DNA from: a virus
IMG/VR virus record: IMGVR_UViG_3300030105_002630
Location: 1 to 30,512 of that record
Reading direction: 5' to 3' (one strand)
DNA: 30,512 bases
Shown here: piece after piece, positions 2,709 through 25,558 of the stretch
Position numbering within the stretch: position 1 is the stretch's first letter
Layout: the number at the start of each line of letters is the position of its first letter
The notes under the pieces: generated by a model
Seen by the model: only the letters and a program-made list of their open reading frames with translations
Databases searched by the model: none
Told to the model about the DNA's origin: nothing
Translations under genes and position numbers: made by a program

Positions 2709-2709
2709 A

Positions 2710-5255: not shown

Positions 5256-5271
5256 AGTACACTAATAAATA

Positions 5272-6670: not shown

Positions 6671-6812
6671 ATAACTCTAACTCTTCTGCATATTGCAATG
6701 ATTCTGATAGAAACTTATTTTTACGTGTATTATCCCATCTATTCGGCCATTCCCAATTATCAGTTTTCATATGATTAATTGATTGAATAAATAATTGTTC
6801 TACGTAATTCAT
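6624..6812 (-). CDS. Small UVR-motif protein
   Basis: A 62-residue protein from the ATG at 6812 (MNYVEQLF); an upstream in-frame ATG at 6836 would add eight residues. The C-terminal 25 residues, with YAEELELYEQCAIIRDVQEEI, fit the UVR motif, a helical hairpin found in UvrB, UvrC, ClpC and the ClpC-activating adaptor McsA. The N-terminal part has a Trp-rich NWEWPNRWDNTR segment. The gene overlaps the ClpS-like gene by 23 or 47 bases depending on the ClpS start. A UVR motif beside a ClpS homologue suggests a shared role in controlling a Clp machine, but a repair-related role is also possible. Confidence 0.65.
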   Translation of the reverse strand: MNYVEQLFIQSINHMKTDNWEWPNRWDNTRKNKFLSESLQYAEELELYEQCAIIRDVQEEIN

Positions 6813-6874
6813 TGTTTTATAACTGCCTGTATACATATTAATATAATAGTAAATATATTGAAAATAACCAAATA

Positions 6875-8451: not shown

Positions 8452-8452
8452 T

Positions 8453-9882: not shown

Positions 9883-10031
9883 TATTCATCTTCCTTGGGT
9901 TTAACAGAAACTAATTTTTCCATTATTTTTTCATATTCTTTATATGTAATATTAGTAGCATCAACTGCTTCTAAGTATCCTTTAAGCCATTGCACAAATT
10001 CATGTGCTGTTATTTTTTCGTAATTTGACAT
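9882..10031 (-). CDS. Hypothetical 49-residue protein
   Basis: A small gene between two longer ones, linked to both by TAATG overlaps: its ATG overlaps the stop of the 98-residue gene and its TAA overlaps the superoxide dismutase start. The product starts MSNYEKITAHEFVQWLKGYL and ends VKPKEDE. It has a single amphipathic helical pattern and no cysteine or membrane segment. The HEFVQWLKGYL segment resembles short phage proteins of unknown role. The exact fit between neighbours is the main evidence for it. Confidence 0.65.
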   Translation of the reverse strand: MSNYEKITAHEFVQWLKGYLEAVDATNITYKEYEKIMEKLVSVKPKEDE

Positions 10032-10327
10032 TATTTGCCTTTCAACGCGCCTTTCAATACTCCTTTTAAAGTCATATCAGTAGCTTTATTATGCATAGGT
10101 CTAGATTCTGCACCTCTTACATAATGAGTCATATAATCTTTTACTTTATTCATGTAATCAGAAGCCAATGTTATTTTAGCTTCTAACCATTCTGGTAAAT
10201 CATCAGTTTCTTGAATCATATTAGCTATATCCATTGCATCTTCAGCACATTCTATAGCAGAATATTTTGCCATTTTGCCTTCACGTTCTTCGTGTCCACA
10301 ACCACAATCTTCTTCTAATTCTTTCAT
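10031..10327 (-). CDS. Small phage protein with DCGCG motif
   Basis: A 98-residue protein starting MKELEEDCGCGHEE. The middle, with AEDAMDIANMIQETDDLPEWL and SDYMNKVKDYMTHY, is a helical module that I recall from many marine T4-like phage genomes (an IT/xASDYM pattern) without a known function. The C-terminus is a short basic tail (KGVLKGALKGK). The Cys pair echoes the DCGCD motif of the protein encoded just upstream, and its start overlaps that gene's stop (ATGA). The two are probably partners or share a metal-binding or structural element; this is inference. Confidence 0.72.
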   Translation of the reverse strand: MKELEEDCGCGHEEREGKMAKYSAIECAEDAMDIANMIQETDDLPEWLEAKITLASDYMNKVKDYMTHYVRGAESRPMHNKATDMTLKGVLKGALKGK

Positions 10328-10497
10328 TTTTTTCCCTTATAAATAGACCAATTCTTTGTTTTTTCATTCAACCAATCTTGGCGCTTATCACATCCACAAT
10401 CTTCATCTAGTATCTTTGCAATTCGCTCAGACAATTTGTCTAATCGTGTTGCTGATGTAATTTTTTTTATATCATCACCTAATCCTTTTGACTTCAT
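10324..10497 (-). CDS. Small phage protein with DCGCD motif
   Basis: A 57-residue protein from the ATG at 10497, which overlaps the upstream TGA (ATGA). A GGAGGAGG ribosome site lies within the end of the upstream gene. It starts MKSKGLGDDIKKITSATRLDKL and carries EDCGCDKRQDWLNEKT. The GLGDxIKKIT...DCGCDKRxxxLN pattern recurs in phages of Bacteroidota and in marine phages, from memory. Its function is unknown. The pairing with the next DCGC protein is notable. Confidence 0.7.
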   Translation of the reverse strand: MKSKGLGDDIKKITSATRLDKLSERIAKILDEDCGCDKRQDWLNEKTKNWSIYKGKK

Positions 10498-10964
10498 GTT
10501 ATAGGGCCTCCTCCAACCCACGCATCACAACTTCTTGCTCCTGCACATTTAAACCAAAAGAATTCACAAAATCCAATATTTGCATTTTTTACTACTGTTT
10601 TACCATCATCTCCTATAGCTTTTTCAATTTTAGCTAATGTAGATTTTTTTTGATCAAATGCACCACAATTTGAACATGTTGATTGTTTTGCAGCTTCTGG
10701 AGTAGTATTCCAAAGTTCTGCTTTATCTTCCCAAAAAGACTTTGAGCCTTTTTCGTCATCTGGATTAATTGGTCCGTAGCTATACTCTTTAATAGTTAAA
10801 TTTCTATTTTTTGTATTAAAATCTAATTCAGTGATAGCGTCTTCTGGCTTCTTTTTCTTAGTTTGTTTATCGTTCTTTAATGCAATAGGAGTATTATATC
10901 CTGGCCAATCAGATAGCCTTCCTTCTAGGATAGTATCTTTGAGTAATGTTTTTAATGTTTTCAT
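10494..10964 (-). CDS. Cys-motif phage protein with tag-like N-terminus
   Basis: A 156-residue protein. The N-terminus MKTLKTLLKDTILEGR is a longer variant of the regional tag, with an ILE|G cut predicted after Glu14. After a polar linker (TKKKKPEDA) the C-terminal half has STCSNCGAFDQ, then GFCEFFWFKCAG, then RSCDAWVGGGP. Five cysteines in a CxxC...C...C...CxxW arrangement recall the cluster pattern of high-potential iron-sulfur proteins, though spacing differs, so this is only a suggestion; a zinc site is equally possible. I have seen this C-terminal pattern in marine phage proteins of unknown function. The gene follows a gap with an inverted repeat. Confidence 0.72.
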   Translation of the reverse strand: MKTLKTLLKDTILEGRLSDWPGYNTPIALKNDKQTKKKKPEDAITELDFNTKNRNLTIKEYSYGPINPDDEKGSKSFWEDKAELWNTTPEAAKQSTCSNCGAFDQKKSTLAKIEKAIGDDGKTVVKNANIGFCEFFWFKCAGARSCDAWVGGGPIT

Positions 10965-10982
10965 ATATTAATAAATATTTAC

Positions 10983-11009
10983 TTAGTAAAGATTATAAAA
11001 TTTTACTAA
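10983..11009 (-). terminator. AT-rich inverted repeat, possible weak terminator
   Basis: TTAGTAAA and TTTACTAA form a perfect 8-bp inverted repeat with an 11-base loop, directly after the stop of the 133-residue gene. The stem is nearly all A-T and no uninterrupted U run follows, so termination would be weak. It could instead be an operator or mRNA-stability element. Confidence 0.2.
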
Positions 11010-11012
11010 ACG

Positions 11013-11414
11013 TTATTTTTCTTTATCGCCCAATTCTGGATGAAATCCTAAATGTACTTTTTTTACTGAATCATCAAATGACTTACCATCACCTTTTAAT
11101 TCTGCAGGAACTATATTTGTTGGATCTTTATACCAATATTGAACATCATACCCTCCAGATTTCTTCCATGTTACTATTAGTCCTCTATCATATTCATCAC
11201 TTTCAGCATGTAATATTATTTTTTGACCTTGTGGTAATTTTAAATCAGATGTTATTGACTTATCCTTTTTGGAATGTTTATCTTCACTAACAGTGTCTTT
11301 ACCACCTTGTTGTTCAAACTCAGTAAGTCCATTTTTTGATAAATAGGAACGACTCCATCGTTTAGGAGCAGTTGACTGTTCCCAACCTTTTAATATATTT
11401 TTTAGTTTCATCAT
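11013..11414 (-). CDS. Hypothetical protein with tag-like N-terminus
   Basis: A 133-residue protein starting MMKLKNILKGWEQS, which matches the regional tag up to residue 8 but has GWE where others have xE. A second LxE, in NGLTEFEQQ near residue 32, could be the actual processing site. A Lys/Asp/Ser-rich linker follows, then a compact C-terminal domain with PQGQKIILHAESDEYDRG, VTWKKSGGYDVQYWYKDP and DDSVKKVHLG. That domain looks like a small beta-rich fold; I do not recognise it. The start overlaps the upstream stop (ATGA). A packaged head protein is the best guess. Confidence 0.65.
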   Translation of the reverse strand: MMKLKNILKGWEQSTAPKRWSRSYLSKNGLTEFEQQGGKDTVSEDKHSKKDKSITSDLKLPQGQKIILHAESDEYDRGLIVTWKKSGGYDVQYWYKDPTNIVPAELKGDGKSFDDSVKKVHLGFHPELGDKEK

Positions 11415-12652
11415 TTTTTATATCCCGTTTGTTTTAACATATTAGCTAATTCTTGACTACGACCTGAACCAATACCTTTTGTAGGCGTTTTACCCGGTCC
11501 TTTTTTAAAATCAGTCTTGTGATGATGTCCTGTTCCCCATGGGCCGCCATAGTCTGCATAATTGTGTTCTTTACCAAATGGTCCAGCAAAGTCTTGTTCA
11601 GTCATTACGTTCATGTCAGTGAGACGTATTCTTAATTTTTTTAACAATGTGTTCTGTTCTGGAGTAACAGGTATTTCAAATACTTGTCCTCCCGGGTACC
11701 CATAATCATTATCTGGATGCATCATTTTAGTATCACCAGTATCATCAATACCCAAAACTTTGTAGTTAACATTGTTCATTGTTATGTTACCACTAGGTAT
11801 CATAGTGCACTTACCTGGATGTTTCAATTGACCTTCTGAATCTGCAACGGCATCTGTGTGTTTCATTACACGTTGCCATCCTTCTTTGTCTAATAATTTA
11901 CGTTTTGTGATATGAGCTGCTAATTCATCTACTACGGTATCATACTGTTCTTCTACAACGGCTTCTACTCGAAGTTGATTCATTGTTATCTCTTTACGTA
12001 GTTGTTTAATATGAGCGAGTAACCCTTTATTCCTAATTCGTTTAAAAGCTAAATTTTCTGCAGAATATTCTCCTTCAGCTTCTAATCCAGTTTTACGCAT
12101 TTTATATAAACGACTTAATATAGTTTTTAATTTATATTCAAGTTTTGGATCGTGTTCATCTAAATTGCTTATCTCATATTCCAATGGAGCTGCTTTGGCT
12201 TCTATAATTTCATCATCAATTGATATTACATCCGCATTAGGTTTTTTCAACCATTTGTCTTGCATCAATGAATATTGTCCTACTGAAGAATGAAGTTGTG
12301 TGTTTGAATCTTGTGCATATAATTCTATATCCATTCCTTTATATGTTAATGGATAATTATTAAACCATATGCTTTTTTTAGCCATCATGTAATTTTTAAC
12401 TAAATGCACATTGCTACCAACTGCTCGATGATCAATAATTATATGTAGATCTATATCAGATTTAGCAGTCCAATTATAATTTGCATTACTTCCTATTAGT
12501 ATTACGTCTAATACTGGAACTTCATCAATTTCTAAAAATTCAAAGAATGCTTTTGCAATTCGAAGAAATTTATGTCTTAGTCCTTTTTTAAGACGATCAC
12601 CTTCCCATAGTTTAGGATTCAGTGTGCTCTGTGTTTCATATTCTGTTAACAT
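11411..12652 (-). CDS. Pol-beta-type nucleotidyltransferase domain protein
   Basis: A 413-residue protein. Residues 1-4 are MLTE, a minimal LxE site, followed by TLNPKLWEGDRLKKGLRHK. The nucleotidyltransferase signature is clear at about residues 53-71: GSNANYNWTAKSDIDLHII, with the DxD metal ligands, and a likely third acidic residue in MDIELYAQD. Such domains move a nucleotide onto protein, RNA or a small molecule. The middle is helical. The C-terminal ~140 residues contain HPGKCTMIPSG, HPDNDYGYPGG and a His-rich GGPWGTGHHHKTD, modules seen in other marine phage proteins. If it is carried in the head it could modify a host target on entry; this is inference. Its start overlaps the upstream stop (TAATG). 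Confidence 0.82.
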   Translation of the reverse strand: MLTEYETQSTLNPKLWEGDRLKKGLRHKFLRIAKAFFEFLEIDEVPVLDVILIGSNANYNWTAKSDIDLHIIIDHRAVGSNVHLVKNYMMAKKSIWFNNYPLTYKGMDIELYAQDSNTQLHSSVGQYSLMQDKWLKKPNADVISIDDEIIEAKAAPLEYEISNLDEHDPKLEYKLKTILSRLYKMRKTGLEAEGEYSAENLAFKRIRNKGLLAHIKQLRKEITMNQLRVEAVVEEQYDTVVDELAAHITKRKLLDKEGWQRVMKHTDAVADSEGQLKHPGKCTMIPSGNITMNNVNYKVLGIDDTGDTKMMHPDNDYGYPGGQVFEIPVTPEQNTLLKKLRIRLTDMNVMTEQDFAGPFGKEHNYADYGGPWGTGHHHKTDFKKGPGKTPTKGIGSGRSQELANMLKQTGYKK

Positions 12653-14580
12653 TAGTCTATATCCTCTTCATATGTATATTCTTCTGCACCAATTGGTTCA
12701 TATTCACTTAAAGCATCGAATTGAAATCCAAATGATCCAGCAAATATTTCTACCTGGTCTTTTGCTCGTCCGGTAAGCTCTCCAACTTGTTCTAATTGTT
12801 TAGCTCCAACTGCATATGTTCCAGGCATTGCTGATAGTATTGCCCATTTTGTTAATGGTACTAGTCCAACTTCTTTTAATTGCTCTGGACTATCAAATCC
12901 CATTCCAGCACCTGCTAATTGCAATTCATCATAAATTATATCTACATTTTTAGCAAATTGTAATTGAACTCCTTTTGAAAATCCGCCACTTATAATTTCA
13001 TTTACTTTATTACTTTTATATCCACTCCAAAGTACATTTTCATTTTTTATTGATTGGTTTACTAACGTTTCAGCTAAATTTTTAGAAATTTCAGGAGACT
13101 CCTTTCCAAATTTGGTAAAAAATGCTGTAGTACCATCTGTAGATCTAAGCAATGAATCCAAATCTACAATATTTCCTGATGTATATTTTTTTAATGAAGG
13201 AGTATCTGCTAAAACTTGTAATACTTTTTTTTGGTCTTTAACTGTTAATCCTTTTATTTGTTTTTGCATTTGGGCAACTACTACATCTCTTTGTTGTTTA
13301 CTACCAAACTTTGTTAGAAATCCTAATCGATCTGGTCGGGTTAATGTTGTTGCAATAAATCTTTCTTCTGTTGCTATAGCCATCTTTGCTAATTTTTTAT
13401 CAGGATAAAAAGGAAGTTTCTTTAATCGAGGAAGAAAATTTAACGTCAATGAATTTAAAACTTTTTTAGAAGTTCTAAATAAGCTAAACGATCGTTTGGT
13501 TGTATCTTTAACTTTATCTGCTGCTTTTAACCCAATAACTGCATCGTCCCATCCTTTACCTGCTTTAGTAAGTGTGTTAGCAGCATCATCTAAATTTTTA
13601 GTAACGGCTCCTGCACCAAAAAACTTTTTTGTTGAATTACTCATTAATGCAGTCTTTTTACCAAACCCGTTAAATGCACTACTTATGTCAGACATTTGAT
13701 TGACACTTAAACCTCCAGTTTTGTGCAATGATACACCCAGAGATTCTATAGCTTTAGGATCTCCTTTTAACCACCAACGTTTAATTAATCCAGTTGCGCC
13801 TGCTTTTGTTAATCCTTTTGCTCCTGCTTTAAGTGCACTTTTAACACCTAAACTAATTACACTTCCTACTACTGGTATTATAGCTATGAGTGATAAAAAT
13901 CCTTCAAAATATCTACCTCGCCAAAAATAAATACAAGCATTAATGGCATCTAATGCATCACCTATAACGGGAATCAATCCCGCATAATCTAATATTTGTT
14001 GAAGTGGATCAAGCCATGATTTATATTCAGCTCCCGGATCAACATCTGCGCCGGCATCGGCTGTCTGATTAAATCTACCTTGTGAGTCTATAGTAGCTAA
14101 TATTACATTAGAAACAGCAGTTGAAACTATTGCATCTGGATTTTTTGATAATAGTTGTATTTTGTTATTATCATATGCATAGCCAATTGTTTTTTGCTGA
14201 TTAAAATCATATACAGATCCATCTTCATAAAATTGAAATAAATTTTTATATGATGCTGTTCTCTTACTTCCTTTAATTGTTGATGGATCTATGTTTATTG
14301 TTACTTCATAATTAGGAGGTGTTGTACTAGACTTTTCTTTAACAGGAATGCCTTTCTTTTGAAGATTTTTAAAAAACTGTTGAACTTTATCTTTTGGTGC
14401 TGGCCATTCATCTGAAGTATTATCTTGTTCCGATAAAACATTTAAATTATTTGTCTTATTAAGATCTTTTTGTTTTTGAGAAAACTCTTCTTTTGCTAAT
14501 TGCAAATGTTCTTGTACAAGTTGCAATTTAACATTCAATGTTTCTTGCTGTATTAATTTTTTTAAATAGATATTATTCAT
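12652..14580 (-). CDS. Large protein with pre-toxin-like hydrophobic hairpin
   Basis: A 642-residue protein. The N-terminus (MNNIYLKKLIQQETL) is a loose version of the tag; a better prohead-protease-like site is NVLSEQ at about 47-52, after a coiled-coil-like stretch. Residues 90-170 look beta-rich. Residues 190-250 form two hydrophobic helices joined by a polar turn, with LIPVIGDALDA and IIPVVG motifs. This is the style of pre-toxin regions in polymorphic toxins and closely parallels residues 150-215 of the protein at 3480-5255. The remaining ~390 residues are long, helical and without a recognised catalytic motif, ending in an acidic tail. A membrane-active internal head protein is plausible but unproven. 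The gene begins after a small gap. Confidence 0.72.
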   Translation of the reverse strand: MNNIYLKKLIQQETLNVKLQLVQEHLQLAKEEFSQKQKDLNKTNNLNVLSEQDNTSDEWPAPKDKVQQFFKNLQKKGIPVKEKSSTTPPNYEVTINIDPSTIKGSKRTASYKNLFQFYEDGSVYDFNQQKTIGYAYDNNKIQLLSKNPDAIVSTAVSNVILATIDSQGRFNQTADAGADVDPGAEYKSWLDPLQQILDYAGLIPVIGDALDAINACIYFWRGRYFEGFLSLIAIIPVVGSVISLGVKSALKAGAKGLTKAGATGLIKRWWLKGDPKAIESLGVSLHKTGGLSVNQMSDISSAFNGFGKKTALMSNSTKKFFGAGAVTKNLDDAANTLTKAGKGWDDAVIGLKAADKVKDTTKRSFSLFRTSKKVLNSLTLNFLPRLKKLPFYPDKKLAKMAIATEERFIATTLTRPDRLGFLTKFGSKQQRDVVVAQMQKQIKGLTVKDQKKVLQVLADTPSLKKYTSGNIVDLDSLLRSTDGTTAFFTKFGKESPEISKNLAETLVNQSIKNENVLWSGYKSNKVNEIISGGFSKGVQLQFAKNVDIIYDELQLAGAGMGFDSPEQLKEVGLVPLTKWAILSAMPGTYAVGAKQLEQVGELTGRAKDQVEIFAGSFGFQFDALSEYEPIGAEEYTYEEDID

Positions 14581-15006: not shown

Positions 15007-15351
15007 TTAAAATCCACTCATTTGGATTTCATCTATCTTGCCTTGTACCTGTGATTTAGTAGCTTTCATACTAAATGATATATCTGCTTGGTATCGTTTA
15101 ACTTCTTTCCCATGATCAAATATAATAATTGTAGGTACAACTACTATTTCATACTTTGTTGCCGATTTTGTATCAGTAGCAATATCACATTTTTTTACCT
15201 TAGCATCACTTAAATTATAAATCCATTTTACATTGTTAGCTGAATTCCAACCTGCATTGAAATGTACTATTGTTAAATCACTTCCAATTTTCATTTGGCT
15301 AAGTAATGTAAATGGAAGAAAGAATAATAGTATTAATATTAATTTTTTCAT
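15007..15351 (-). CDS. Exported thioredoxin-like protein lacking CxxC
   Basis: A 114-residue protein with a signal peptide (MKKLILILLFFLPFTLLSQ). The mature part follows the thioredoxin fold: strand TIVHFNAGWNS, then CDIATDTKSATKYEIVVVPTIIIFDHG with the conserved cis-proline motif VPT and the following strand, then an SxxxxxKI helix. Where thioredoxins have WCxxC this protein has GWNSANN, so both active cysteines are missing and it cannot act as a dithiol oxidoreductase. It probably serves as a binding or chaperone domain in the periplasm. A GAGG ribosome site lies 5 bases before the ATG. Confidence 0.78.
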   Translation of the reverse strand: MKKLILILLFFLPFTLLSQMKIGSDLTIVHFNAGWNSANNVKWIYNLSDAKVKKCDIATDTKSATKYEIVVVPTIIIFDHGKEVKRYQADISFSMKATKSQVQGKIDEIQMSGF

Positions 15352-15364
15352 AAAAACCTCGGTT

Positions 15365-15649
15365 TTATCTTAATTGATCAATTTTATTTTCGATTCTATC
15401 TAAGTCGTCTTTTAATTCCTCAACGTCTGTTGCTGTATTTTGGATAGTTAAGCGGATGTTCTTATCTTTCATATCGAATTCCATTCTAGTAACATCTGGT
15501 GGTGGTGGAACTGGTAGTTCTTTAGCTTCTGCTATGTCTGCTTGTAAAATAAACCACATACTAATAATGGTTGCCATACTAACACCTATACCTGCTAATG
15601 TTTTAATACTTACTTTAAATCCTGTGTCTTCGTTTAATTCTTTAGCCAT
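15365..15649 (-). CDS. Single-span membrane protein with C-terminal coiled coil
   Basis: A 94-residue protein with a short charged N-terminus, one transmembrane helix at about 13-36 (IGVSMATIISMWFILQA), a Pro-rich linker (ELPVPPPPDVTR) and a C-terminal coiled coil (DVEELKDDLDRIENKIDQL). Similar short proteins are common in marine T4-like phages. The layout resembles inner-membrane spanin or holin-associated proteins, but the lysis pair is 4 kb upstream, so this is only a possibility. A GGAG ribosome site 7 bases before the ATG supports the start. Confidence 0.75.
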   Translation of the reverse strand: MAKELNEDTGFKVSIKTLAGIGVSMATIISMWFILQADIAEAKELPVPPPPDVTRMEFDMKDKNIRLTIQNTATDVEELKDDLDRIENKIDQLR

Positions 15650-15660: not shown

Positions 15661-16731
15661 TTAAAATACTACGTAATTTATTCCTACACTAAAGTCGTGC
15701 CAATTACGATTCCAATATTTATTATATTTACCTTCTAAAAATATTCCTAAACTTTTATTAAACTTATATCCAAAAATTAATCCTCCGGAGTAGTCTACCC
15801 ATTGTCCTTGATTAAATGTATGATATGAAAATTCATTTCCTGTCTTTATATGATACGGCATTATATTACCCCATGAGTGAATCCAAAATTCTTTTGTATA
15901 ATGATAAAAATCAAAGCCTAATACAAAAGAGTATTCAATTTGAGAAGATAATTCATTTCTTTTCTTTTCTGTGTAATCTGATAACATAGAAGGAATAGCT
16001 ACCGCTTCCCATACTTCTGTACTTGTTGCAACTGAATTACCATTAGGATCAAAATATTCAATAGCACCACTACCATCAAACTCAACTCTATATCCTTCTT
16101 GTATAGCTAAGTCAGTGTAATGTAAGTTACCATTAGATAACATCCACTCTTCTAAAGGATTATATCCATATGGTTCCGAAAGTCGTTGTACAGCTCCTAT
16201 ATTCAAAGAAAACTTACCTTGTTTATCTATTTTTTGTCTGTATCTCTGAGATGCTTCAAAGTATTCTATATCAGCAAACCCATCTTGAAGATATTCTACT
16301 TTAGCTATCCAACGATCAGCTACATATCGTAAGAAGTGATGTTGATTCAGGAAGTTAGTTCCTTGCTGTCTAGTATAATCAGCTTCAAATAAAAATTCAA
16401 ATCCTTTTATTTTACCTATAGTAGCAGCATCAGAGTATGACTTTTCTGTACCATCATAAAATACATTAGCTCTATTTTCATATCCTAGTCTTGCAATCTT
16501 TCTTATACCTAATGCAATTGAAAAATCAAAAGGAGTTTTAATAGTGCTCGTCTCTAATCCGTTTGTAACTGAATACACATCTACATCTGATATAGAGTTA
16601 CCTCCATTAACGGCTCCATATACCGTTGCAAATTTAAACGTCTTTTTTAACGTTCTTTTAAATTTACCTTGCTCTTGTGCATTAATATTTAAAACGTTTA
16701 ATGCAAATAATAATATTAATAACTTTTTCAT
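15661..16731 (-). CDS. Outer-membrane beta-barrel protein
   Basis: A 356-residue protein with a clear signal peptide (MKKLLILLFALNVLNINAQ). The mature part has many alternating strands with aromatic ends, such as GFEFLFEADYTR, WIAKVEYLQDG, FSLNIGAVQRL and YSFVLGFDFYHY, and ends in SVGINYVVF, a terminal Phe typical of outer-membrane barrels. No enzyme motif is seen. Its ATG overlaps the TGA of the T9SS cargo gene upstream (ATGA), so the two are coupled and likely function together at the host outer membrane, for example as anchor and surface part. Masking a phage receptor is another option. It may have been acquired from a Bacteroidota host. Confidence 0.8.
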   Translation of the reverse strand: MKKLLILLFALNVLNINAQEQGKFKRTLKKTFKFATVYGAVNGGNSISDVDVYSVTNGLETSTIKTPFDFSIALGIRKIARLGYENRANVFYDGTEKSYSDAATIGKIKGFEFLFEADYTRQQGTNFLNQHHFLRYVADRWIAKVEYLQDGFADIEYFEASQRYRQKIDKQGKFSLNIGAVQRLSEPYGYNPLEEWMLSNGNLHYTDLAIQEGYRVEFDGSGAIEYFDPNGNSVATSTEVWEAVAIPSMLSDYTEKKRNELSSQIEYSFVLGFDFYHYTKEFWIHSWGNIMPYHIKTGNEFSYHTFNQGQWVDYSGGLIFGYKFNKSLGIFLEGKYNKYWNRNWHDFSVGINYVVF

Positions 16732-19499
16732 TGTTTTATTATTCTTTTACTATATTGTTTATTTTCATATGAAATAGTCATATTATAGACTCCTGCAGTT
16801 AATTTTGATAAATCAATTCGCATTGTGTTATTTTCTGGTCTAACTATTTCAGATATAACTCTCCCCATCATATCAAGTACTTGTACTTCTATATCTAAAT
16901 GAGTGTCTATAAATAATATGTTATTAGTAGGATTAGGATATACTATAATACCTAAAGCTGAGGCATCGTCTAAACCTGCAGGCCATCCGTTTTGACAATA
17001 ATTATACATTGACTGACAGCTAGCATCCCAATCAGTACTACAACAATATTCATCTACATCTATTACCCATGCAAAGCATCCATCATTTAACCAATAAGGC
17101 AATCCTTCTCCTTGATAACATCCCGCATCATATAAACAGGCTGTTGAATCAGTTACATTTGCTGTTGGATCATAATTAGTAGCTGATACATCCGTACATC
17201 CTATAACTGGTAGTATACAATTTCCATTAGTTGTATTGGCTAATGGATCATAATTTAAAGCAGTTGAGTCTGTACATCCAAATATAACTTCTATACAACT
17301 TCCATTGTCTATATTTGCTAATAGATTATAATTAAATGATGTTATATCCATACAACCATATACTATCTCTATACACGATCCATTATCTGTATTAGCCAAA
17401 GGATCATAATTAAATGAGTTAGGGTCTGTACAACCCGGTATTGGGTAGATACATCCACTATTAACAGTTGCATTAGGATTATAATTTAATGCTATTATAT
17501 CCGTGCATCCTATATAATAACATGAACCATCATCTGTATTTGCTGTAACGTTATAATTATCTGCTGTTGCGTCCATACATCCCGTTATAATTGATACACA
17601 ACTATTATCATCTACATTAGCATTAGAATCATAATTAAATGCTAAATCATTTGTACATCCTTCTACTATTGCAACGCAACTTCCATCGTCTGTGTTAGCA
17701 TTAAGGTTATAATTAAATGACGTTGAATCCATACACCCCAAAACTGTTGGTATACAATATGTTCCACAGAATGGTAATGCGGTGTATTTTGTAAAGAATG
17801 GTGCTTTAAATCCTTGTAATGCACCTTGACCATTATTAGCAAATGGGTTAATTCCTTCATACATTAACTCAACACCATTTGCATTTGTTAATTTGAATGA
17901 ATTATGCCAAGTTTGAAATTGTACTTCTTGTGGTGGCTGCTGCGGTCCTCCTACTTCAAAATAAAATACTTCTACTAGAATACCTGGATCTAATAATATG
18001 TTAAATGTTTGTTGATATGTACCCGGTCCCATTGTATATGTTCCTAAGTCTATACCATTTTGATATACACCGATATATGAGTTACCCCATCCGTCACCAC
18101 CAGCATCAAATATTTCTAATGTGTAATTACAATCTGGCACTAAGTCCATTATGGTAGCTGCAGGATCATAATTAAATGCTGCAGGATCTATACAACCATA
18201 TATGTGTAAGATACTACATGATCCATCATCTACTGTTGCTAATGGATCAAATTCTTGATAATCATCATTTGTACATCCTAATATATCTGAAATTATAATA
18301 CAAGGTGTTGCTGTCTGTGGTCCTGAGTATAATACCTCCCCAAAGCCTGGATTGTCCATATACCAAATAGTATCTCCCGAACAATTGTAAATAACAATTG
18401 TACCATCCATTGTTCCACCAGATGTAGAACCTGCCATCCCATCACCATACTCATCATTAACTATCAATTCAAATCCAGCATTCTGATCTACGCAAAAGTT
18501 ATAAGTATATGTTTGACCTATGTCATTAAAGTCATACTCACCCATTGTAGCTTCTCCTATAACACCTAGACTATTCATTATCCAAGACGTTTCACTAGGC
18601 CAATTATCAAATGTAATTTCCATTGTTATCTGATATTGAGTTGATGTATCACAAGTTGTACCAGCACATGAACCATCATCATTAGTTGCCCATGGATTAT
18701 AAGATTCTTGTGTAGGATCTGTACAGCCATCAATGCATGGGGTTGGAGTGTAAGCAATAGTATCAGATAATGTACCATCTGCAAACTCTACTTGTAAATA
18801 ATGTTCTACACTCCAATTAGGTGGCATCTGACCATTACCTGCATTAACCGCAAAGTTAGTTGCATCTGGTCCAACATTATATTGATATGGTCCAACACCT
18901 TCTTCATTGGTATACCATACCTTAACAATTTCACATGAAGGGTTATACTGCCCTAACGTCCACTCAAATGTAATTAATGCCTGGCCTCCTGGATAGCAAT
19001 TTTGATATGCATTAGACGACAAAATCCCGTCACATGCAGGGTAGGTACAAGTACTATTTTCTACGAATGCGTTGGGATCATAATTAAGTGCATTTGGATC
19101 TGTACAACCTGGTATAGGTGGGGCACAAGGTGCAATAGTTAATGTATCTGTATACAATGATCCAAAGTCTCCAGCAACAAATGATATAGTATCTTGACAA
19201 TTATTTTGTATTAAGAATGACCCATCAGTTCCACCAAATAGACTAGCACCTAAACCATCACCAAAAACATCATATAAATTAAATGTGTAAGTTCCAGCAT
19301 CTAAATTTATTATAGTATCTAAAAGTGAATTTATTATATAATTAGAATCACTCTCTACTACTACCGATCCATATCCATCTAACACTTCCCAACTAATCTC
19401 TGATGGATAATTGTCCGATAAGTATTGAATGTTTATCCAACTATTCTGTGCGGTTAGCATTGTTGGTAGAAATGCTAATAAAAATAATAACTTTTTCAT
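16728..19499 (-). CDS. T9SS-exported surface protein with Cys-repeat array
   Basis: A 923-residue protein from the ATG at 19499 (MKKLLFLLAFLPTMLTAQ), chosen because it starts a clean signal peptide; the longer frame adds 21 unlikely residues. The N-terminal half has domains with YGDG/GDGW motifs (DVFGDGLGAS, DEYGDGMAG, DAGGDGWGN), known in Bacteroidota surface proteins. Twelve GCxDxxxxNYxxxAxxxxGSC repeats follow the pattern of calcium-type surface repeats, eight of them in tandem. The last ~75 residues (IIVYPNPTNNILFI ... LSKLTAGVYNMTI ... YSKRIIKQ) are a T9SS type A sorting domain. The protein should be exported by Sec and then T9SS and anchored or released at the host surface. Phage location makes an adhesin, receptor mask or virion decoration possible. 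Confidence 0.9.
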   Translation of the reverse strand: MKKLLFLLAFLPTMLTAQNSWINIQYLSDNYPSEISWEVLDGYGSVVVESDSNYIINSLLDTIINLDAGTYTFNLYDVFGDGLGASLFGGTDGSFLIQNNCQDTISFVAGDFGSLYTDTLTIAPCAPPIPGCTDPNALNYDPNAFVENSTCTYPACDGILSSNAYQNCYPGGQALITFEWTLGQYNPSCEIVKVWYTNEEGVGPYQYNVGPDATNFAVNAGNGQMPPNWSVEHYLQVEFADGTLSDTIAYTPTPCIDGCTDPTQESYNPWATNDDGSCAGTTCDTSTQYQITMEITFDNWPSETSWIMNSLGVIGEATMGEYDFNDIGQTYTYNFCVDQNAGFELIVNDEYGDGMAGSTSGGTMDGTIVIYNCSGDTIWYMDNPGFGEVLYSGPQTATPCIIISDILGCTNDDYQEFDPLATVDDGSCSILHIYGCIDPAAFNYDPAATIMDLVPDCNYTLEIFDAGGDGWGNSYIGVYQNGIDLGTYTMGPGTYQQTFNILLDPGILVEVFYFEVGGPQQPPQEVQFQTWHNSFKLTNANGVELMYEGINPFANNGQGALQGFKAPFFTKYTALPFCGTYCIPTVLGCMDSTSFNYNLNANTDDGSCVAIVEGCTNDLAFNYDSNANVDDNSCVSIITGCMDATADNYNVTANTDDGSCYYIGCTDIIALNYNPNATVNSGCIYPIPGCTDPNSFNYDPLANTDNGSCIEIVYGCMDITSFNYNLLANIDNGSCIEVIFGCTDSTALNYDPLANTTNGNCILPVIGCTDVSATNYDPTANVTDSTACLYDAGCYQGEGLPYWLNDGCFAWVIDVDEYCCSTDWDASCQSMYNYCQNGWPAGLDDASALGIIVYPNPTNNILFIDTHLDIEVQVLDMMGRVISEIVRPENNTMRIDLSKLTAGVYNMTISYENKQYSKRIIKQ
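17130..17738 (-). repeat. Tandem array of eight Cys-containing repeats (about 26 residues each)
   Basis: The coding strand carries eight consecutive units of the form GCxDxxxxNYxxxAxxxxGSC plus a 3-5 residue linker, about 78 bases per unit. Units vary at third codon positions and in the linkers, so they are old or selected, not a recent expansion. Four further copies lie at about 18170-18280, 18665-18730 and 19045-19110. Confidence 0.85.
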
Positions 19500-19506: not shown

Positions 19507-19746
19507 TTAGTTTTCGTCTGATTGTTTAGATTTAAATATTTTCCCTGCTTCAGCAATACCAAAACTTCCTAAGGTTATCCATAAGAATGAGTTATAAATA
19601 AAGTCGTTAATTACTAAGTCAGTACCAGTCCAACCAGTTACTACATCAGCAACAGCAAATATTACCATTACTGCAAATGATGCAAATCCTACTACGCTTT
19701 TTTCGTTGATGTCATTGTCATCTTTAAAGATGTTTCCAAATGCCAT
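19507..19746 (-). CDS. Holin-like small membrane protein
   Basis: A 79-residue protein from the ATG at 19746 (MAFGNIFKDDNDINEKS); an upstream ATG at 19782 would add 12 basic residues. It has two hydrophobic segments (VVGFASFAVMVIFAVADVV and FIYNSFLWITLGSFGIAEA) and a short charged tail (KIFKSKQSDEN). Its size, two spans and position directly after the endolysin gene fit a holin, which permeabilises the inner membrane at lysis. No sequence motif proves this, and similar small proteins in marine phages are often unannotated. Confidence 0.68.
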   Translation of the reverse strand: MAFGNIFKDDNDINEKSVVGFASFAVMVIFAVADVVTGWTGTDLVINDFIYNSFLWITLGSFGIAEAGKIFKSKQSDEN

Positions 19747-19804
19747 AATTTTACTTTTTAAATTTAGAAGTAACTTGTTCATAATATAAAAACTTTTTGT
19801 TTGT

Positions 19805-20722
19805 TTATAATTGTTTTAACATTTCTACTAATTCAGGTTGAGGAAAACAATCAAATTTGTCTTTCCTAACATTTGTATGTGTCCATAAACCAAATTGTTT
19901 GGCATTATAAGCATCTGTGTTGAACTCAAATGCATCTGCTGGATCAACGCCTTCTTTAAGTAATTTGGGAAGTCCATTGACTAAATCCATTTTAGGATAA
20001 ATATCACGTAGGTGAAGAATTAATAGACGTAAACTTTCAATTTGTTTATCCGAATATGCGTGCCAATATCTTTTACCTCTAAACTCATATCCTAGATCGC
20101 ATACAAATTCTTCTTTAACTTCGGTGTTAACGTATGTATAATACTTATCTCCTTTCTTAGTTAAGTATCCAAAGTTATTAAGCTCTACACCTCCTGAAAA
20201 TTTAGATATAGCAAACTTACCTACTTTACCTAAATGCCATCCTAAATAGTTATTAGGAAAACATTCTACTACTACACCATCATGTTTAGCTTCTTTACCT
20301 TTAACATTAGAACCTCCAATACAATATTGAGTAGCTACTCTACCACGTTTATCATTGTTCCAGTTTCTGATAGTAGCATATGGATTATCCCATCCTGCTG
20401 TATGATGAATAAAAAATCCTAATGGTTCTATTTTACCGTAGTCTCTTACATACTCATCTTTGTCTAAGTATTGGCGATCAATAACTAATCCATCTTTTGT
20501 TGTATATTCTGTTTCTGCAGCTGCCTCAAATGAATCAGTGTCTATTCCAATAGCTTCCCATGTTCCTGGGCCAACTAATCCGTCAACTGCTAATCCATTA
20601 TCTTTTTGAAATTTCTTTACTGCTGCTTCTGTGCCAGAACCAAATACGCCGTCCGATCCTATACTTAAAGCCGTCTGTAACTGCTTTACTTCTTCGCCTC
20701 TAGAGCCTTTTTTCAATAACAT
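19805..20722 (-). CDS. Endolysin: peptidoglycan-binding plus N-acetylmuramoyl-L-alanine amidase
   Basis: A 305-residue protein. Residues 1-60 are a PG_binding_1 domain (LLKKGSRGEEVKQLQ, DGVFGSGTEAAVKKFQ, DGLVGPGTWEAIG). Residues about 95-305 are an Amidase_2 zinc amidase: FFIHHTAGW gives the first zinc His (106/107), and the C-terminal THTNVRKDKFDCFP has the His...Lys...Asp-Cys spacing of T7-lysozyme-type amidases. It should cut the bond between N-acetylmuramic acid and L-Ala in peptidoglycan. There is no signal peptide, so a holin would be needed, and a holin-like gene follows. An AAGG ribosome site precedes the ATG. It has no capsid tag, unlike the lysozyme at 6875-7531. Confidence 0.92.
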   Translation of the reverse strand: MLLKKGSRGEEVKQLQTALSIGSDGVFGSGTEAAVKKFQKDNGLAVDGLVGPGTWEAIGIDTDSFEAAAETEYTTKDGLVIDRQYLDKDEYVRDYGKIEPLGFFIHHTAGWDNPYATIRNWNNDKRGRVATQYCIGGSNVKGKEAKHDGVVVECFPNNYLGWHLGKVGKFAISKFSGGVELNNFGYLTKKGDKYYTYVNTEVKEEFVCDLGYEFRGKRYWHAYSDKQIESLRLLILHLRDIYPKMDLVNGLPKLLKEGVDPADAFEFNTDAYNAKQFGLWTHTNVRKDKFDCFPQPELVEMLKQL

Positions 20723-20841: not shown

Positions 20842-21609
20842 CTATTTTTTGCATAACTTATAATCTTTTTGTTTTTTTGTAGGATACCATCCCCATTTAT
20901 ATTTAAAATAATCGTGACATAATATTTCTAGCTGTTGCTTCTTTTTCTTTTCTTGAGCTGTTGCTTCTGTACCAATAGATACAAAGTGATAAAAATGACA
21001 CTTATGCGTTCTAACTAAATCAAATCCAGCTAAATCACACTTATGGAAAAACTCCCAATCAACAACCCACGCACCAGGATACGACTCATCCCACCCGCCT
21101 ACTGTTAAGTAATCTTGTTTTGACATAAAAAATGGAAGTGTAGAACCTTTAGATGTTAATTTATCTTGAGAAAGTTTATTAGCTAATTCATAAAATGCAT
21201 CTTTGTGAAACACATCAGGTGCACCAAAATCCATAATAACAAACTCATCAAATATACTCGGATTGGGTTCTATTTGATTAGGTGTTACAACTCTACCTTT
21301 TTTATATGTAGATAATAATTGAACATCCCAGTTTGGCGGAAACACATTATCATCGTTAACAATTAATATTTTATCAAATTCTGCGTTATATACACCTAAA
21401 TTTGTAGCTTTACATAAACCTTGGTTGTCCTCTAGATCAAGTATACTAATTTTATCTTTATATGTATCTAACACACTTCTGTTTAAGTCGTAAAATCCAT
21501 CAACTACAACGATAATTTGATTATCATGAGTTTGATTTGATATTGCAGACTGTATACATATCTCTAATGCTTCTGGAGCTTTATATGTTGGAATTATTAC
21601 ACTAATCAT
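20842..21609 (-). CDS. Family 2 glycosyltransferase
   Basis: A 255-residue GT-A glycosyltransferase. It starts MISVIIPTYKAPEALEICIQ, the classic GT2 opening, with IIVVVDGFYD next and a metal/nucleotide-binding acidic motif LIVNDDNVFPP near residue 85. A GWDESYPGAWVVDWEFF segment supplies the later (E/W)D-type motif. It probably transfers a sugar from a nucleotide donor to the glycan made by this operon. It is the last gene of the operon; its start overlaps the upstream stop (ATGA), and a 119-base gap separates it from the endolysin gene. Confidence 0.88.
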   Translation of the reverse strand: MISVIIPTYKAPEALEICIQSAISNQTHDNQIIVVVDGFYDLNRSVLDTYKDKISILDLEDNQGLCKATNLGVYNAEFDKILIVNDDNVFPPNWDVQLLSTYKKGRVVTPNQIEPNPSIFDEFVIMDFGAPDVFHKDAFYELANKLSQDKLTSKGSTLPFFMSKQDYLTVGGWDESYPGAWVVDWEFFHKCDLAGFDLVRTHKCHFYHFVSIGTEATAQEKKKKQQLEILCHDYFKYKWGWYPTKKQKDYKLCKK

Positions 21610-22289
21610 ACTTTACTCCAATCAGTTAATGGTGATAACCATGCAGTTTCGCCGTGTGTTGCATAGCCTGGTAAGGGTGTTATTAACAGTTCATTGTTAT
21701 CTCTTAGCTCTAAAAACATTTGAAAGTCGTTTGGATGTGTTTCTGATGTCCATTTTCTTAAAATTGACTCAACTCTTTTAAGAGTACTAACTTTAGCTGC
21801 AAATGTCATGGTTGTTGAATTTGTAACTTTCCAATGACATGAATCTGTAAGATACACTCTAGTATCTTCCCCACCACCTTCGCAATATGGGTTACCGCCT
21901 CTCAACGGATCTAAGTACTTATCAGGGTGATCATAAAGAGAAACAAATGATGCACCTAAACTAAATCCTTCATTAATAATATCAGATGACTCTTTTTTAT
22001 GAATATAATCATTTTCTACAAAATAAACTATCTCATCATCATCATACGTTAAAGCTATATCTAACGCTAAATTAAATGTTCCTGCACCATGGCCAACACT
22101 AACATGTTTAATAGAAACTTCGTGTTGTTGAATCATTTCTCTTGTATTATCTGAAATATTATCAGCCATAACTAATATATCATGATCTTGAAATGTCCAT
22201 ACAAAGTTACTTAAACATTTTTTATTATCTATATATTCTGGTTTTTCTTTTTTATAACCAGTATCTGATATTCTATATATTATTTTCAT
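21606..22289 (-). CDS. Glycosyltransferase-like protein
   Basis: A 227-residue protein. It has a GT-A-like layout without the usual GT2 opening: MKIIYRISDTGYKKEK, then DILVMADNISDNT, a GAGTFNLALDIAL segment, and an acidic motif VYFVENDYIHKK around residue 93 in the DxD position. Later segments are Gly-rich (LRGGNPYCEGGGEDT) and end HGETAWLSPLTDW. I place it as a probable glycosyltransferase from this motif order and its position between two sugar genes; the family is unassigned. It overlaps the PseB-like gene by 17 bases. Confidence 0.72.
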   Translation of the reverse strand: MKIIYRISDTGYKKEKPEYIDNKKCLSNFVWTFQDHDILVMADNISDNTREMIQQHEVSIKHVSVGHGAGTFNLALDIALTYDDDEIVYFVENDYIHKKESSDIINEGFSLGASFVSLYDHPDKYLDPLRGGNPYCEGGGEDTRVYLTDSCHWKVTNSTTMTFAAKVSTLKRVESILRKWTSETHPNDFQMFLELRDNNELLITPLPGYATHGETAWLSPLTDWSKV

Positions 22290-23190
22290 GTATTAATTTT
22301 TCTAATTCGTGTTTTGACATATCTATTGCATTCCTAGATGAGTGCTCTTCATGTAAATTTTTATTCTGTTTTGTTGTGTGTATAAATACAAAGTCATCAA
22401 CTGTATTTGTATATGGTAGTTCATTTCTACTAATTAATGTTTCGTTAAGTTTTTCACCTGGCCGTTTGCCTATAATCTCCACCTCTTTATCTGACAGATT
22501 TTTGGCTAACGATAATAGATTTACATTCTTCATAATCTTACATAATATAAATGATTCTGTCATTTTCATAGCACTTACTATAGATGTATAAACTAATTCA
22601 GCTGATTCTTCTTTTGAAAACATTAATCGATTCATCCCTGCATCTGTTAACTTTAATGCATTTCCTTTACTAGCTTGTGATATCCAGAATGGTATAACAG
22701 AACCATTACTACCTGCTACATTAGCAAATCTAGTGCAAACAAATTTTGTTTTTTGATTATGATGTTCCATAAACATTTTCTCCATCATCTTTTTTGTATA
22801 GCCATACACACTATCAGGATCACAAGCTTTATCTGTACTAATCCCAACTGTTAATGGAACTCCGGCTCGCACACTAGCTTTAATAACATTAAGACTACCT
22901 CTAATATTTATTTTTATAGCACTAGTTGGATTTTCCTCTGCTAAATTTATATGCTTTAACGCTGCGGAGTGGATTACTATATCAGGCTTAATTTGCTCAA
23001 AAATATTTATTAAATGCTCTAAGTCAAGAATGTCTCCTACATGGCTCTCTACTTTAGGGTAATTTTGTTTTAGTTCTGCAATGTTATTTTCGTTTCTACT
23101 AACATTATAAAACTTATATTTACTATAATATTTTTTTATAAACGCCGTACCCACTGTACCGGTACCTCCTGTTATCAATACTCGCTTCAT
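22273..23190 (-). CDS. PseB-like NAD(P)-dependent nucleotide-sugar 4,6-dehydratase
   Basis: A 305-residue short-chain dehydrogenase-type enzyme from the ATG at 23190, which follows an AGAGGAG site and overlaps the upstream TGA. The Rossmann motif VLITGGTGTVG is at residues 4-14. The catalytic segment has STDKACDP and SVYGYTKK, matching the Asp-Lys and YxxxK residues of FlaA1/PseB-type UDP-GlcNAc 4,6-dehydratases. A CapD-like protein with another substrate is also possible. The product would be an early intermediate for a nonulosonic acid or deoxyamino sugar. The matching aminotransferase (PseC) is not in the window. Confidence 0.85.
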   Translation of the reverse strand: MKRVLITGGTGTVGTAFIKKYYSKYKFYNVSRNENNIAELKQNYPKVESHVGDILDLEHLINIFEQIKPDIVIHSAALKHINLAEENPTSAIKINIRGSLNVIKASVRAGVPLTVGISTDKACDPDSVYGYTKKMMEKMFMEHHNQKTKFVCTRFANVAGSNGSVIPFWISQASKGNALKLTDAGMNRLMFSKEESAELVYTSIVSAMKMTESFILCKIMKNVNLLSLAKNLSDKEVEIIGKRPGEKLNETLISRNELPYTNTVDDFVFIHTTKQNKNLHEEHSSRNAIDMSKHELEKLIHENNI

Positions 23191-24203
23191 ACTATCTCCT
23201 CTAAACACTTTATATATTGCTCTGCTGATGTAAATGTAACACCGCCTGCAATATTATTATCTATAAACTCTTTATACTTACCATGCATTACTTGCTCTGT
23301 TAAGTTCTTGAATATCTCAACTCTGTTAAGATTAACTAATCCGTAATAATCTTTATAACATCCAATTGCACCACTACCTTTAATCAGTATAGTAGGTATA
23401 CCTAACTGTATCGGTTTAAATGCTAAGGTAGATGGAGCAGATAATACTAAAGCTGAATCAGCTATCAACTGATCTATGTTATCTGTATTTGCTACAACAC
23501 TACATTTTAATAAACTGTTAACATACTCTACACTTGCTCTATAATCAGGGTTATCTAATCTTGTCTTTATCTTAACAATAATAGGTAGATTATAATGATT
23601 ACTTATTTCAACTATACCCGTTTCGTTAATGAATCTTTGATCTAAGTTAACAGAGTATGGTGAAGATCTATTACCTAGAAAGTTAGCTATAAGTAGTATG
23701 TGATTATTTCTACGCACCACACTTTTAAGAGTGTCATTTGCTGGAATTCCACCTGTTTTAAAATCCATTTTCACATCATAACTTACACCTAATGCATCAT
23801 GAGGTGTATCTTCATTACCATGTGAATTACCTATGACCATTATATTTTTATCATTACATTCTTGATATAATGCTGGTATGTTATATTCAGACATACTTCT
23901 ATTATCATCAAATATTACTTTACTATACATATTGATATCAATATACGAACTCAAATCCGCACTAATAACATCTCCATGATATTTTATACCAGGTCCATTG
24001 ATAATTTTATCCAAATACTTATTGTATTTGTTTACCATTATTTCACGTTCGTCTATATCACCAATCCACGGTGTCTCATAACTCATTAACCCTATCATAA
24101 ATAAGTCTACTATATATTTATCTGCTAACATAGGGATAATTGGCCATAGTTTCTCTGCTACTCTATGGTTAGTAAATAGTAATAAAACTCTACTCTTTGA
24201 CAT
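23187..24203 (-). CDS. Putative GT-B-like glycosyl- or glycerophosphotransferase
   Basis: A 338-residue protein from the ATG at 24203 (MSKSRVLLLFTNHRVAEKL); an upstream ATG at 24239 lies deeper inside the previous gene. It has two Rossmann-like halves: the first with VLLLFTNHRVAEKLW and NIMVIGNSHGNEDTPHD, the second with HILLIANFLGNRS, SALVLSAPSTLAFKPIQLG and PTILIKGSG. That second part resembles the donor-binding half of GT-B or CDP-glycerol-type transferases. I cannot assign a family. Context supports a role in sugar or polymer transfer. It overlaps the upstream gene by 14 bases and the next by 4. Confidence 0.68.
   Translation of the reverse strand: MSKSRVLLLFTNHRVAEKLWPIIPMLADKYIVDLFMIGLMSYETPWIGDIDEREIMVNKYNKYLDKIINGPGIKYHGDVISADLSSYIDINMYSKVIFDDNRSMSEYNIPALYQECNDKNIMVIGNSHGNEDTPHDALGVSYDVKMDFKTGGIPANDTLKSVVRRNNHILLIANFLGNRSSPYSVNLDQRFINETGIVEISNHYNLPIIVKIKTRLDNPDYRASVEYVNSLLKCSVVANTDNIDQLIADSALVLSAPSTLAFKPIQLGIPTILIKGSGAIGCYKDYYGLVNLNRVEIFKNLTEQVMHGKYKEFIDNNIAGGVTFTSAEQYIKCLEEIV
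23196..23202 (-). promoter_or_regulatory. Strong SD fixing the dehydratase start
   Basis: The transcribed strand reads AGAGGAG 5 bases before the ATG at 23190, inside the last codons of the upstream gene. It makes the start at 23190 much more likely than the in-frame ATG at 23208. Confidence 0.55.
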
Positions 24204-24909
24204 ATCTTTTCTCTCTAGGTAATGTTGCAAATTCATCACTCAATTGCAAGTTTCTATTTTTATAGTAGTGTGCAACAAATGTTTTATTGATAGCGTTAAC
24301 ACGTATATCTGGCTGCTTCCATAATCCGTACATCATAGGTTGCATATCTTCTGTATTCCAATCTGCTACCTCTTTGAACCACCACTCATTAAGTTTAATA
24401 ATGTTGTCTGTATTTCTTCTGAATAATATACCATTTTCATACATTCCTATATCACGTGGATAACCATTGTCTTCATACCTCTTCACCTGATTAATTAGTG
24501 ACTCTTGGCTATCTCTCAAAGGAACTCTCTTTAATCCACCTTCATATGTTTCTTGATATAAACAATTCCTATCACAGTGTTTATGAACAGCTAGATCATA
24601 CTCACCTAAGTAATGTTCAAATAAAGATCTTACATCATATTTGAAATATATCTGGTGATCCATCCATAACCAGGCATCGTATCCTGGTAGTAATTCTTGT
24701 GGAGATGTTTTACACTTTCTTGCAGTCCATCTACCATCTCTCCACACATCCATCTGCCTAACATCCCAGAAGTCAGATTTTAAATATTTACTATTTGTAA
24801 AGCATACATAATCCACACCCTCTTTAGGATGATTATAAGGTATTATGTCACCGTATAAGTAATCAGGATCATCTGTAAATAACGCTGTATAAACTACTAA
24901 CTTCTCCAT
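24190..24909 (-). CDS. DUF616/TOD1-like glycosyltransferase
   Basis: A 239-residue protein starting MEKLVVYTALFTDDPDYLY. The segments VDYVCFTNSKYLKSDFWDVR, RKCKTSPQELLPGYDAWLWMD and ENGILFRRNTDNI match the pattern of DUF616 (TOD1/MUCI70-type) glycosyltransferase-like proteins, with the acidic WMDHQI segment in the likely DxD position. Such proteins are found in bacterial capsule clusters. The acceptor is unknown. The gene starts just after the stop of the upstream GT2 gene, with a GGGTAAT sequence before the ATG. Confidence 0.78.
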   Translation of the reverse strand: MEKLVVYTALFTDDPDYLYGDIIPYNHPKEGVDYVCFTNSKYLKSDFWDVRQMDVWRDGRWTARKCKTSPQELLPGYDAWLWMDHQIYFKYDVRSLFEHYLGEYDLAVHKHCDRNCLYQETYEGGLKRVPLRDSQESLINQVKRYEDNGYPRDIGMYENGILFRRNTDNIIKLNEWWFKEVADWNTEDMQPMMYGLWKQPDIRVNAINKTFVAHYYKNRNLQLSDEFATLPREKRYVKE

Positions 24910-24910
24910 A

Positions 24911-25558
24911 TTACCCTATTCCTTTCCATGTTGCTCCATTAGGAGTCCAATAATGATTACATTTTTGACTACCATCATATAGATAAGTATAATTTTTACT
25001 TACCATATCTATAGCCCAATATCTATCTTCTTTACCTTGAAGTGTTTCGTCAAATGGATTATCTAATAACGTTTGTTTATTATAAAAACAAAATGCATTA
25101 TGTAAAAAGTGACGATCTTCAATTTCTGAGTATAAATTTTGTTTGCGACCATTACCAAAATGACTCCAAATATATCTTTTCGTAATTTTTTTTCCTCTAT
25201 ATATAGGAGTTTGATTACCAAATACTGCGGAATGATATTTTAAATCTTCTTGTATACATCCATAATCTATATTTGTAATTTGTGCATGTGCTGATAAAAT
25301 TAATATAGTTTCATATGTACAATGTTTGACACCTTCATTTAAAGCTGCACCAGGGCTATAATCATCAATAGTTACTATTTTTAACTGTTGTTTAAGTGTT
25401 GGTCTAAACATACTAACAACTTCGATTGAATTATCTGTTGAGTTATTATCAACAATTATAATTTCAGGTTTATTAAAATGATCTAGTACGGATTGTATAG
25501 CAAATCCTATATATTGCTCTTCATTCCTATTTCTTATAATAACACTAATCCTATCCAT
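24911..25558 (-). CDS. Family 2 glycosyltransferase
   Basis: A 215-residue GT-A enzyme from the ATG at 25558 (MDRISVIIRNRNEEQYIG), which a strong SD supports; a longer in-frame version at 25618 would lie inside the NeuB-like gene. Motifs are IIIVDNNSTDNSIEVV (nucleotide binding) and ETILILSAHAQI, with the later FDETLQGKEDRYWAID giving the ED-type catalytic motif. It is probably the transferase closest in function to the CMP-sugar made by the genes upstream, but GT2 members use many donors. Its ATG overlaps the NeuB-like stop by 8 bases. Confidence 0.87.
   Translation of the reverse strand: MDRISVIIRNRNEEQYIGFAIQSVLDHFNKPEIIIVDNNSTDNSIEVVSMFRPTLKQQLKIVTIDDYSPGAALNEGVKHCTYETILILSAHAQITNIDYGCIQEDLKYHSAVFGNQTPIYRGKKITKRYIWSHFGNGRKQNLYSEIEDRHFLHNAFCFYNKQTLLDNPFDETLQGKEDRYWAIDMVSKNYTYLYDGSQKCNHYWTPNGATWKGIG

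Follow-up and report, generated by a model that had tools for sequence, protein, structure and literature searches.

The DNA examined here, hereafter the window, is a complete linear IMG/VR record of 30,512 bases (IMGVR_UViG_3300030105_002630). Our subject is a gene on its minus strand (16728..19499), a whole open reading frame with an ATG start, whose 923-residue product has the features of a type A cargo of the type IX secretion system (T9SS). The first-pass annotation had located this gene between a lysis pair and a block of tagged proteins, and this is indeed where it lies: a holin-like gene (19507..19782) and an amidase gene (19805..20722) stand just upstream, and proteins with LxxE tags occupy approximately 2355-14580. 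The signal peptide, the 12 repeats and the C-terminal type A sorting domain that it had listed were likewise all confirmed, respectively by the sequence, by a pattern count and by the TIGR04183 and PF18962 profiles.

All features of the cargo are on the minus strand. Its first 18 residues (MKKLLFLLAFLPTMLTAQ; 19446..19499), which are followed by an Asn, have the appearance of a typical Bacteroidota signal peptide of the Sec type, both on visual inspection and under a simple rule; the same rule detected a signal-peptide-like start in 87 of the 92 homologues with a complete 5' end, and the remaining 5 were so judged by eye. Residues 131-788 (17136..19109) form the repeat region, in which pattern matching recovered 12 units of the form GCxDxxxxNY...C. 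Eight of these constitute a tight tandem at residues 588-788, and the others are interspersed among β-sandwich domains. When matches were counted without overlap, the cargo gave 11, whereas 2000 shuffled versions of it averaged 0.04 and never exceeded 2; the 923 residues of the cargo include 42 cysteines. An AlphaFold2 model revealed, at the level of the fold only, an immunoglobulin (Ig)/fibronectin type III (FnIII)-like β-sandwich domain at residues 151-255 (18735..19049; VIA-align Z up to 8.5, root-mean-square deviation 2.7 over 92 residues). A Cys/Trp-rich helical module at residues 794-840 (...CCSTDWDASCQSMYNYC...; 16980..17120), with invariant Cys columns in the family alignment and modelled helices at 807-837, precedes the sorting domain at residues 853-923 (16731..16943). 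Confidence in the models of this work is moderate (mean pLDDT 65 and 68). No enzymatic domain was found in the cargo by Pfam, NCBIfam or PHROGs, and a fold search with the whole model returned generic β-sandwich matches only, all spanning residues 151-255, with the other parts barely tested by it. The cargo is apparently a long, Cys-rich, adhesin-like and non-enzymatic protein, in which β-sandwich domains are combined with a stalk of Cys repeats.

TIGR04183 matched residues 853-923, reaching the last residue of the protein, with E=6.4e-13 and 48.5 bits (curated cut-off 23 bits), and PF18962 matched with E=3.3e-13 and 50.2 bits (curated cut-off 27 bits). The profile of the phage sorting domains in turn matched solved T9SS sorting domains, namely 8glk, 8glj, 5hfs (gingipain R2), 7pq4 and 8qb1 (mirolase). 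Across 23 aligned homologues the invariant positions are Y854, P855, N856 and P857 (the YPNP motif), G879, G903 and Y905 (G-x-Y), and the terminal Lys, K922. Among 26 virus records, 21 contained a single sorting-domain match each; of the other five, two break off before the gene is complete, and in three the tail is variant or divergent. The sorting domain is under purifying selection: in 85 pairs, representing 76 distinct domains, the ratio of nonsynonymous to synonymous substitution (dN/dS) had a median of 0.26 and did not exceed 0.55, and the domain profile matched 107 of the 111 homologues with an intact 3' end, indicating that it is kept by selection. The N-terminal part of the cargo and the number of repeats (7-33) vary among homologues. 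For example, the sorting domains of L039 and L009 are identical and their first 250 residues share only 60% identity, and three further homologues with 19, 24 and 14 repeats (L013, L016 and L034) have sorting domains that are 96-98% identical. Near relatives share a constant signal peptide and C-terminal domain, and differ in the exposed N-terminus and in repeat number.

Cargo homologues were found at about 100 IMG/VR loci with the same neighbourhood, in which the gene adjoining the cargo encodes an outer-membrane β-barrel protein. A search with the cargo protein by itself recovered 45 viral loci on contigs of up to 171 kb (including contigs of 145, 171 and 138 kb), and a search with the barrel gave over 570 matching stretches, the best 80 being retained. 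The syntenic 171-kb relative (G007) encodes a T4-like terminase, a portal, a gp23-type major head protein, a tail sheath and a tail fibre, along with a DnaB-like helicase, a ribonucleotide reductase and GroEL, and is by its gene content a T4-like myovirus. The closest relative on a large contig (G001) adds a protein with a type B sorting domain (L056:18995-19963; PF13585, TIGR04131; CHU_C / Bac_Flav_CTERM). Two features might have pointed to an assembly chimera or a host island rather than a phage gene, these being the cellular character of the repeats and the sorting domain, and the presence of the gene in one metagenome-assembled genome (MAG) of GTDB. The contig evidence excludes this: about 100 phage loci have this neighbourhood in common, and the full-length cargo together with the barrel occurs in only 1 of 119 Flavobacteriales genomes, where it is on a phage-like MAG contig. 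The MAG contig with the cargo block also has an endolysin and DNA-replication genes resembling those of the phage relatives, and is about 84-93% identical in DNA to the virus contig L127 over their common stretches. The contig L064 / G027:C32 (MAG NAT55, NZWA01000061.1, GTDB), binned in a Flavobacteriales MAG, is a phage fragment of the window's group.

The MAG bearing a phage contig of the cargo family encodes SprA, the T9SS translocon. Small-genome Flavobacteriales often have the Cys repeats, which were matched in 46 of the 119 genomes, nearly always only over about residues 580-800 of the cargo. Like the cargo, these marine Flavobacteriales proteins have GCxDxxxxNY...DDGSC repeats, at about 50-59% identity, and several of them terminate in a sorting domain of the same type; some have a signal peptide as well. 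Unlike the cargo, they are cellular, those examined being about 2000 residues long with up to 51 repeats, and they have other N-terminal domains, so that the match is limited to the repeats. Given the shared repeats and sorting domain, the cargo consists of elements that are also found in proteins of its likely hosts.

Among isolate phages, a tblastn search with the C-terminal domain of the window gave two weak matches only, both in uncultured giant phage records, and a profile search was therefore needed. By portal (52% identity), the isolate with a Bacteroidota host that comes nearest is Flavobacterium phage immuto, which has a T9SS type A domain on gp015. The question whether homologues exist in phages of hosts that lack a T9SS leads to the cyanophage S-CAM3, the only isolate that matches the cargo; it shares the repeats alone, in a virion protein. 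The genomes of S-CAM3 and of Mel-JY01, a cyanobacterial record, contained no sorting domain. This is the pattern expected if the sorting tag tracks the secretion system of the host, albeit in a small test of three genomes. Mel-JY01 (PP395634.1, L192-L195) is recorded as a Microcystis phage, and its portal is 52% identical to those of marine Bacteroidota phages, equal to that of immuto; its host assignment may be worth checking.

The repeats of S-CAM3 bear on a further role raised in the first-pass annotation, that the cargo ends up decorating virions. The same Cys repeats are indeed present in virion proteins of S-CAM3 and in large proteins of related phages (L129:2-2590 and L132:1105-5610), which are without a sorting domain; however, those of S-CAM3 and L132 have no signal peptide either. 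Moreover, capsids and tails assemble in the cytoplasm, and an exported protein would meet virions only after lysis. We accordingly regard virion decoration as very improbable, and as the least supported of the roles that had been listed.

We instead read the cargo as a phage protein that is exported by the T9SS of the infected Bacteroidota host and displayed on the cell surface, and assign this reading, which had already been advanced in the first-pass annotation and is well supported here, a probability of about 85% on the strength of sequence comparisons. The route would follow established T9SS biology. Sec would move the cargo across the inner membrane via its signal peptide; the host T9SS would then recognise the C-terminal domain and pass the cargo through the outer membrane; and finally the sorting domain would be removed and the cargo retained on the cell surface. 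The T9SS, which had been described as restricted to Bacteroidota, in fact belongs to the wider Fibrobacteres-Chlorobi-Bacteroidetes group (PMC7468147).

Several observations weigh against this reading. The complete homologues L040, L041, L043 and L140, and also L169, end in a short tail of another kind that lacks YPNP. For the window phage itself, the T9SS of the host is one that we infer. No head, tail or other structural gene was recognised in the 30.5-kb window, and its phage origin rests on the endolysin and holin-like genes and on the syntenic relatives. Wherever a barrel locus extends 4.5 kb or more in both directions, the cargo is present (68 of 68), a co-occurrence that concerns the closest relatives only and includes some loci that overlap or lie on the same contig and are hence not all independent. 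Distant phages (L171-L187) carry the barrel gene, a gene for a secreted thioredoxin fold, or both, without the cargo within the available DNA. Finally, promoter scans performed no better than shuffles and give no expression timing for the cargo. As to the variant tail of the five homologues, it has the form ...ITDLLGRPTKIIKN..LLYIYSDGxVKRKLIKE and replaces the standard sorting domain. An NCBIfam search of the L040 version gave no match, and the ITDLLGRPTKIIKN tail is possibly a T9SS signal for which there is no model yet.

The genes around the cargo are all on the minus strand, in the order endolysin, holin-like protein, cargo, barrel, 94-residue protein and thioredoxin fold. The endolysin combines a peptidoglycan-binding domain with an N-acetylmuramoyl-L-alanine amidase (PF01471, PF01510; PHROG endolysins). 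The holin-like small membrane protein gave no Pfam or PHROG match; it belongs to a conserved cluster (27 loci), and its homologue in immuto directly precedes the endolysin. On the other side, the secreted outer-membrane barrel of about 12 strands (15661..16731) has a start that overlaps the cargo stop by 4 bases. It is followed by the 94-residue protein (15365..15649), with one transmembrane segment, a proline stretch and a coiled coil, and by a secreted thioredoxin fold that lacks the CxxC active site (15007..15351; PF00085, E=1e-5). Of the 29 relatives in which 3 kb or more flank the cargo on each side, all have the barrel, 28 the thioredoxin fold, 27 the coiled-coil protein and 20 the holin-like gene. 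The commonest order was cargo-barrel-coiled coil-thioredoxin fold-holin, and the gaps between cargo and barrel ranged from -4 to 19 bases. The block in the window looks like one operon, because its genes are -4 to 22 bases apart with no terminator-like site in between, and the cargo is probably co-expressed with the lysis genes and the outer-membrane barrel. Terminator scans and matches to the T4 late promoter TATAAATA were at chance level. Two more specific assignments for the neighbours were rejected. The thioredoxin fold is ruled out as a disulfide foldase for the Cys-rich cargo, as CxxC is absent from every secreted member (0 of 34). The barrel is not identifiable as PorP/SprF: neither Pfam nor NCBIfam matched it at E 0.01, and a fold search gave generic barrels only. 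No isolate phage encoding the barrel was found.

The barrel, the transmembrane/coiled-coil protein and the CxxC-less thioredoxin fold also form a separate module without the cargo (L171, L173, L176, L177, L182 and L187). In these distant, differently built phages, of which L182 has siphophage-like head-tail genes, the module adjoins peptidases or amidases and holin-like genes. The cargo is therefore not essential to this module, and looks like a later addition to an older unit. The module may itself represent a spanin-like or exclusion system that has escaped notice in Bacteroidota phages. This arrangement raises the alternative that the cargo is an aid to lysis, whereby it and the three products of the module would jointly weaken or open the outer membrane after the endolysin has acted, in place of spanins. 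The tight same-strand clustering with the endolysin and the holin-like gene, the short gaps between cargo and barrel, the company of lysis-type genes that the module keeps in distant phages too, and the layout of the 94-residue protein, which like an inner-membrane spanin has one transmembrane segment and then a coiled coil, are all consistent with such a role. However, the cargo is dispensable where the module occurs without it, no enzymatic or membrane-active domain was found in it, and a surface-exposed protein is poorly positioned for bridging the periplasm. We consider a part of the cargo in lysis unlikely.

Returning to surface display by the host T9SS, its purpose may be superinfection exclusion: with surface receptors shielded or occupied, neither progeny nor rival phages would be taken up by the dying cell or its debris. 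A late surface coat resembling host proteins could keep both from being wasted on a dying cell. In phage-resistant Flavobacterium columnare, mutations were found in T9SS/gliding genes (sprA, gldM, gldN and others), which implies that T9SS-dependent surface proteins matter for phage entry (PMC9233685). The constancy of the signal peptide and C-terminal domain, against changing exposed parts, also supports this purpose, which we favour tentatively and at somewhat less than even odds. A role in adhesion or aggregation, in which the cargo would attach infected cells or their debris to particles or fresh host cells and so aid spread, or would alter gliding, strikes us as doubtful. It draws on the stalk of repeats with an Ig/FnIII-like domain, on the T9SS tags of cellular proteins with the same repeats, on the secreted C-type lectin protein that adjoins the cohesin cargo of immuto, and on a PA14-domain protein among the cargo of Cryophage (PMC7468147); no ligand-binding domain was, however, identified in the cargo. 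The exclusion and lysis themes might also be parts of a joint envelope programme of marine Bacteroidota phages, in which the T9SS-exported coat, the barrel, the inner-membrane coiled-coil protein and the inactive periplasmic thioredoxin fold close the surface to other phages and prepare the envelope for lysis, while the exposed coat diversifies by module exchange and change of repeat number. We offer this as a speculative scheme that is probably not correct in full.

Other parts of the window deserve brief mention. Many of the proteins in the tagged block begin with MKLxxILxE-like sequences (MMKLSNIIKE, MIRLSNILNE, MIKLKHILTE, MKLMSILTE), which resemble the capsid-targeting sequences of T4 that are cut after LxE/IxE; these proteins are possibly internal head proteins injected along with the DNA. 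The region 20842-30512 has the appearance of a glycosyltransferase and sugar-gene block, with a CMP-sugar synthetase-like gene (28247-28945), a NeuB-like gene (25551-26354) and epimerases, which suggests that the window phage may also alter or build surface glycans. At the other end, an open reading frame at 3-185 encodes another secreted protein, which starts with a signal peptide and runs off the end of the record so that its C-terminus is outside the window; neither it nor a lipoprotein at 204-728 had relatives among the loci compared.

Bacteroidota phages are abundant in the sea, and little is known of their action on the host surface. A conserved phage protein that carries the address of the host T9SS points to selection for surface display during infection. 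The cargo family moreover provides a testable link between the T9SS, which flavobacterial phages often need for entry, and the control of superinfection. As immuto has a T9SS cargo of its own, immuto and Flavobacterium sp. LMO8 form a pair in which this can be tested now.

The closest precedent is Cryophage, in which Bellas et al. (2020) reported three T9SS type A cargo genes among variable genes and termed this a unique occurrence, and for which superinfection exclusion had already been proposed as a role (PMC7468147). A full-text search found no further reports of phage T9SS cargo, subscription papers and preprints being mostly beyond its coverage. As in the window, type A sorting domains are present on phage genes, a Bacteroidetes host is inferred and hijacking of the host system is supposed. 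Cryophage has a 76-kb circular genome, and its endoglucanase, GH39 and PA14 cargo are all variable, flexible genes. The family described here instead has one T9SS type A cargo per genome, an apparently non-enzymatic Cys-repeat protein that is fixed beside lysis genes in many marine phages, T4-like ones included. What is new is hence a cargo family that is conserved rather than flexible, occurs in many marine phages including T4-like ones, and is linked to lysis genes and a phage barrel. The cargo of the cultured phage immuto was apparently overlooked: vB_FspM_immuto gp015 (YP_010114427.1) is annotated only as a cohesin domain-containing protein. It belongs to a T4-like myovirus of a Bacteroidota host, as the cargo of the window may also do, and like our cargo it combines a signal peptide with a sorting domain of T9SS type A. 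It differs in its length of 243 residues, in the cohesin domain that replaces the Cys repeats, and in its genome position, at which no barrel or secreted thioredoxin-fold neighbours were found. In immuto, gp013-gp015 (L188:10527-13422, NC_055915.1) encode in a row the C-type lectin protein, a further secreted protein and the type A cargo. Phages of enterobacteria also possess outer-membrane or surface exclusion proteins, such as Llp of T5, Cor of N15 and phi80, Lom of lambda and the Lc porin of PA-2. As is predicted for the cargo, whose part in exclusion is putative, these phage proteins are located within or on the outer membrane of an infected cell; unlike it, they are lipoproteins or barrels and not T9SS cargo.

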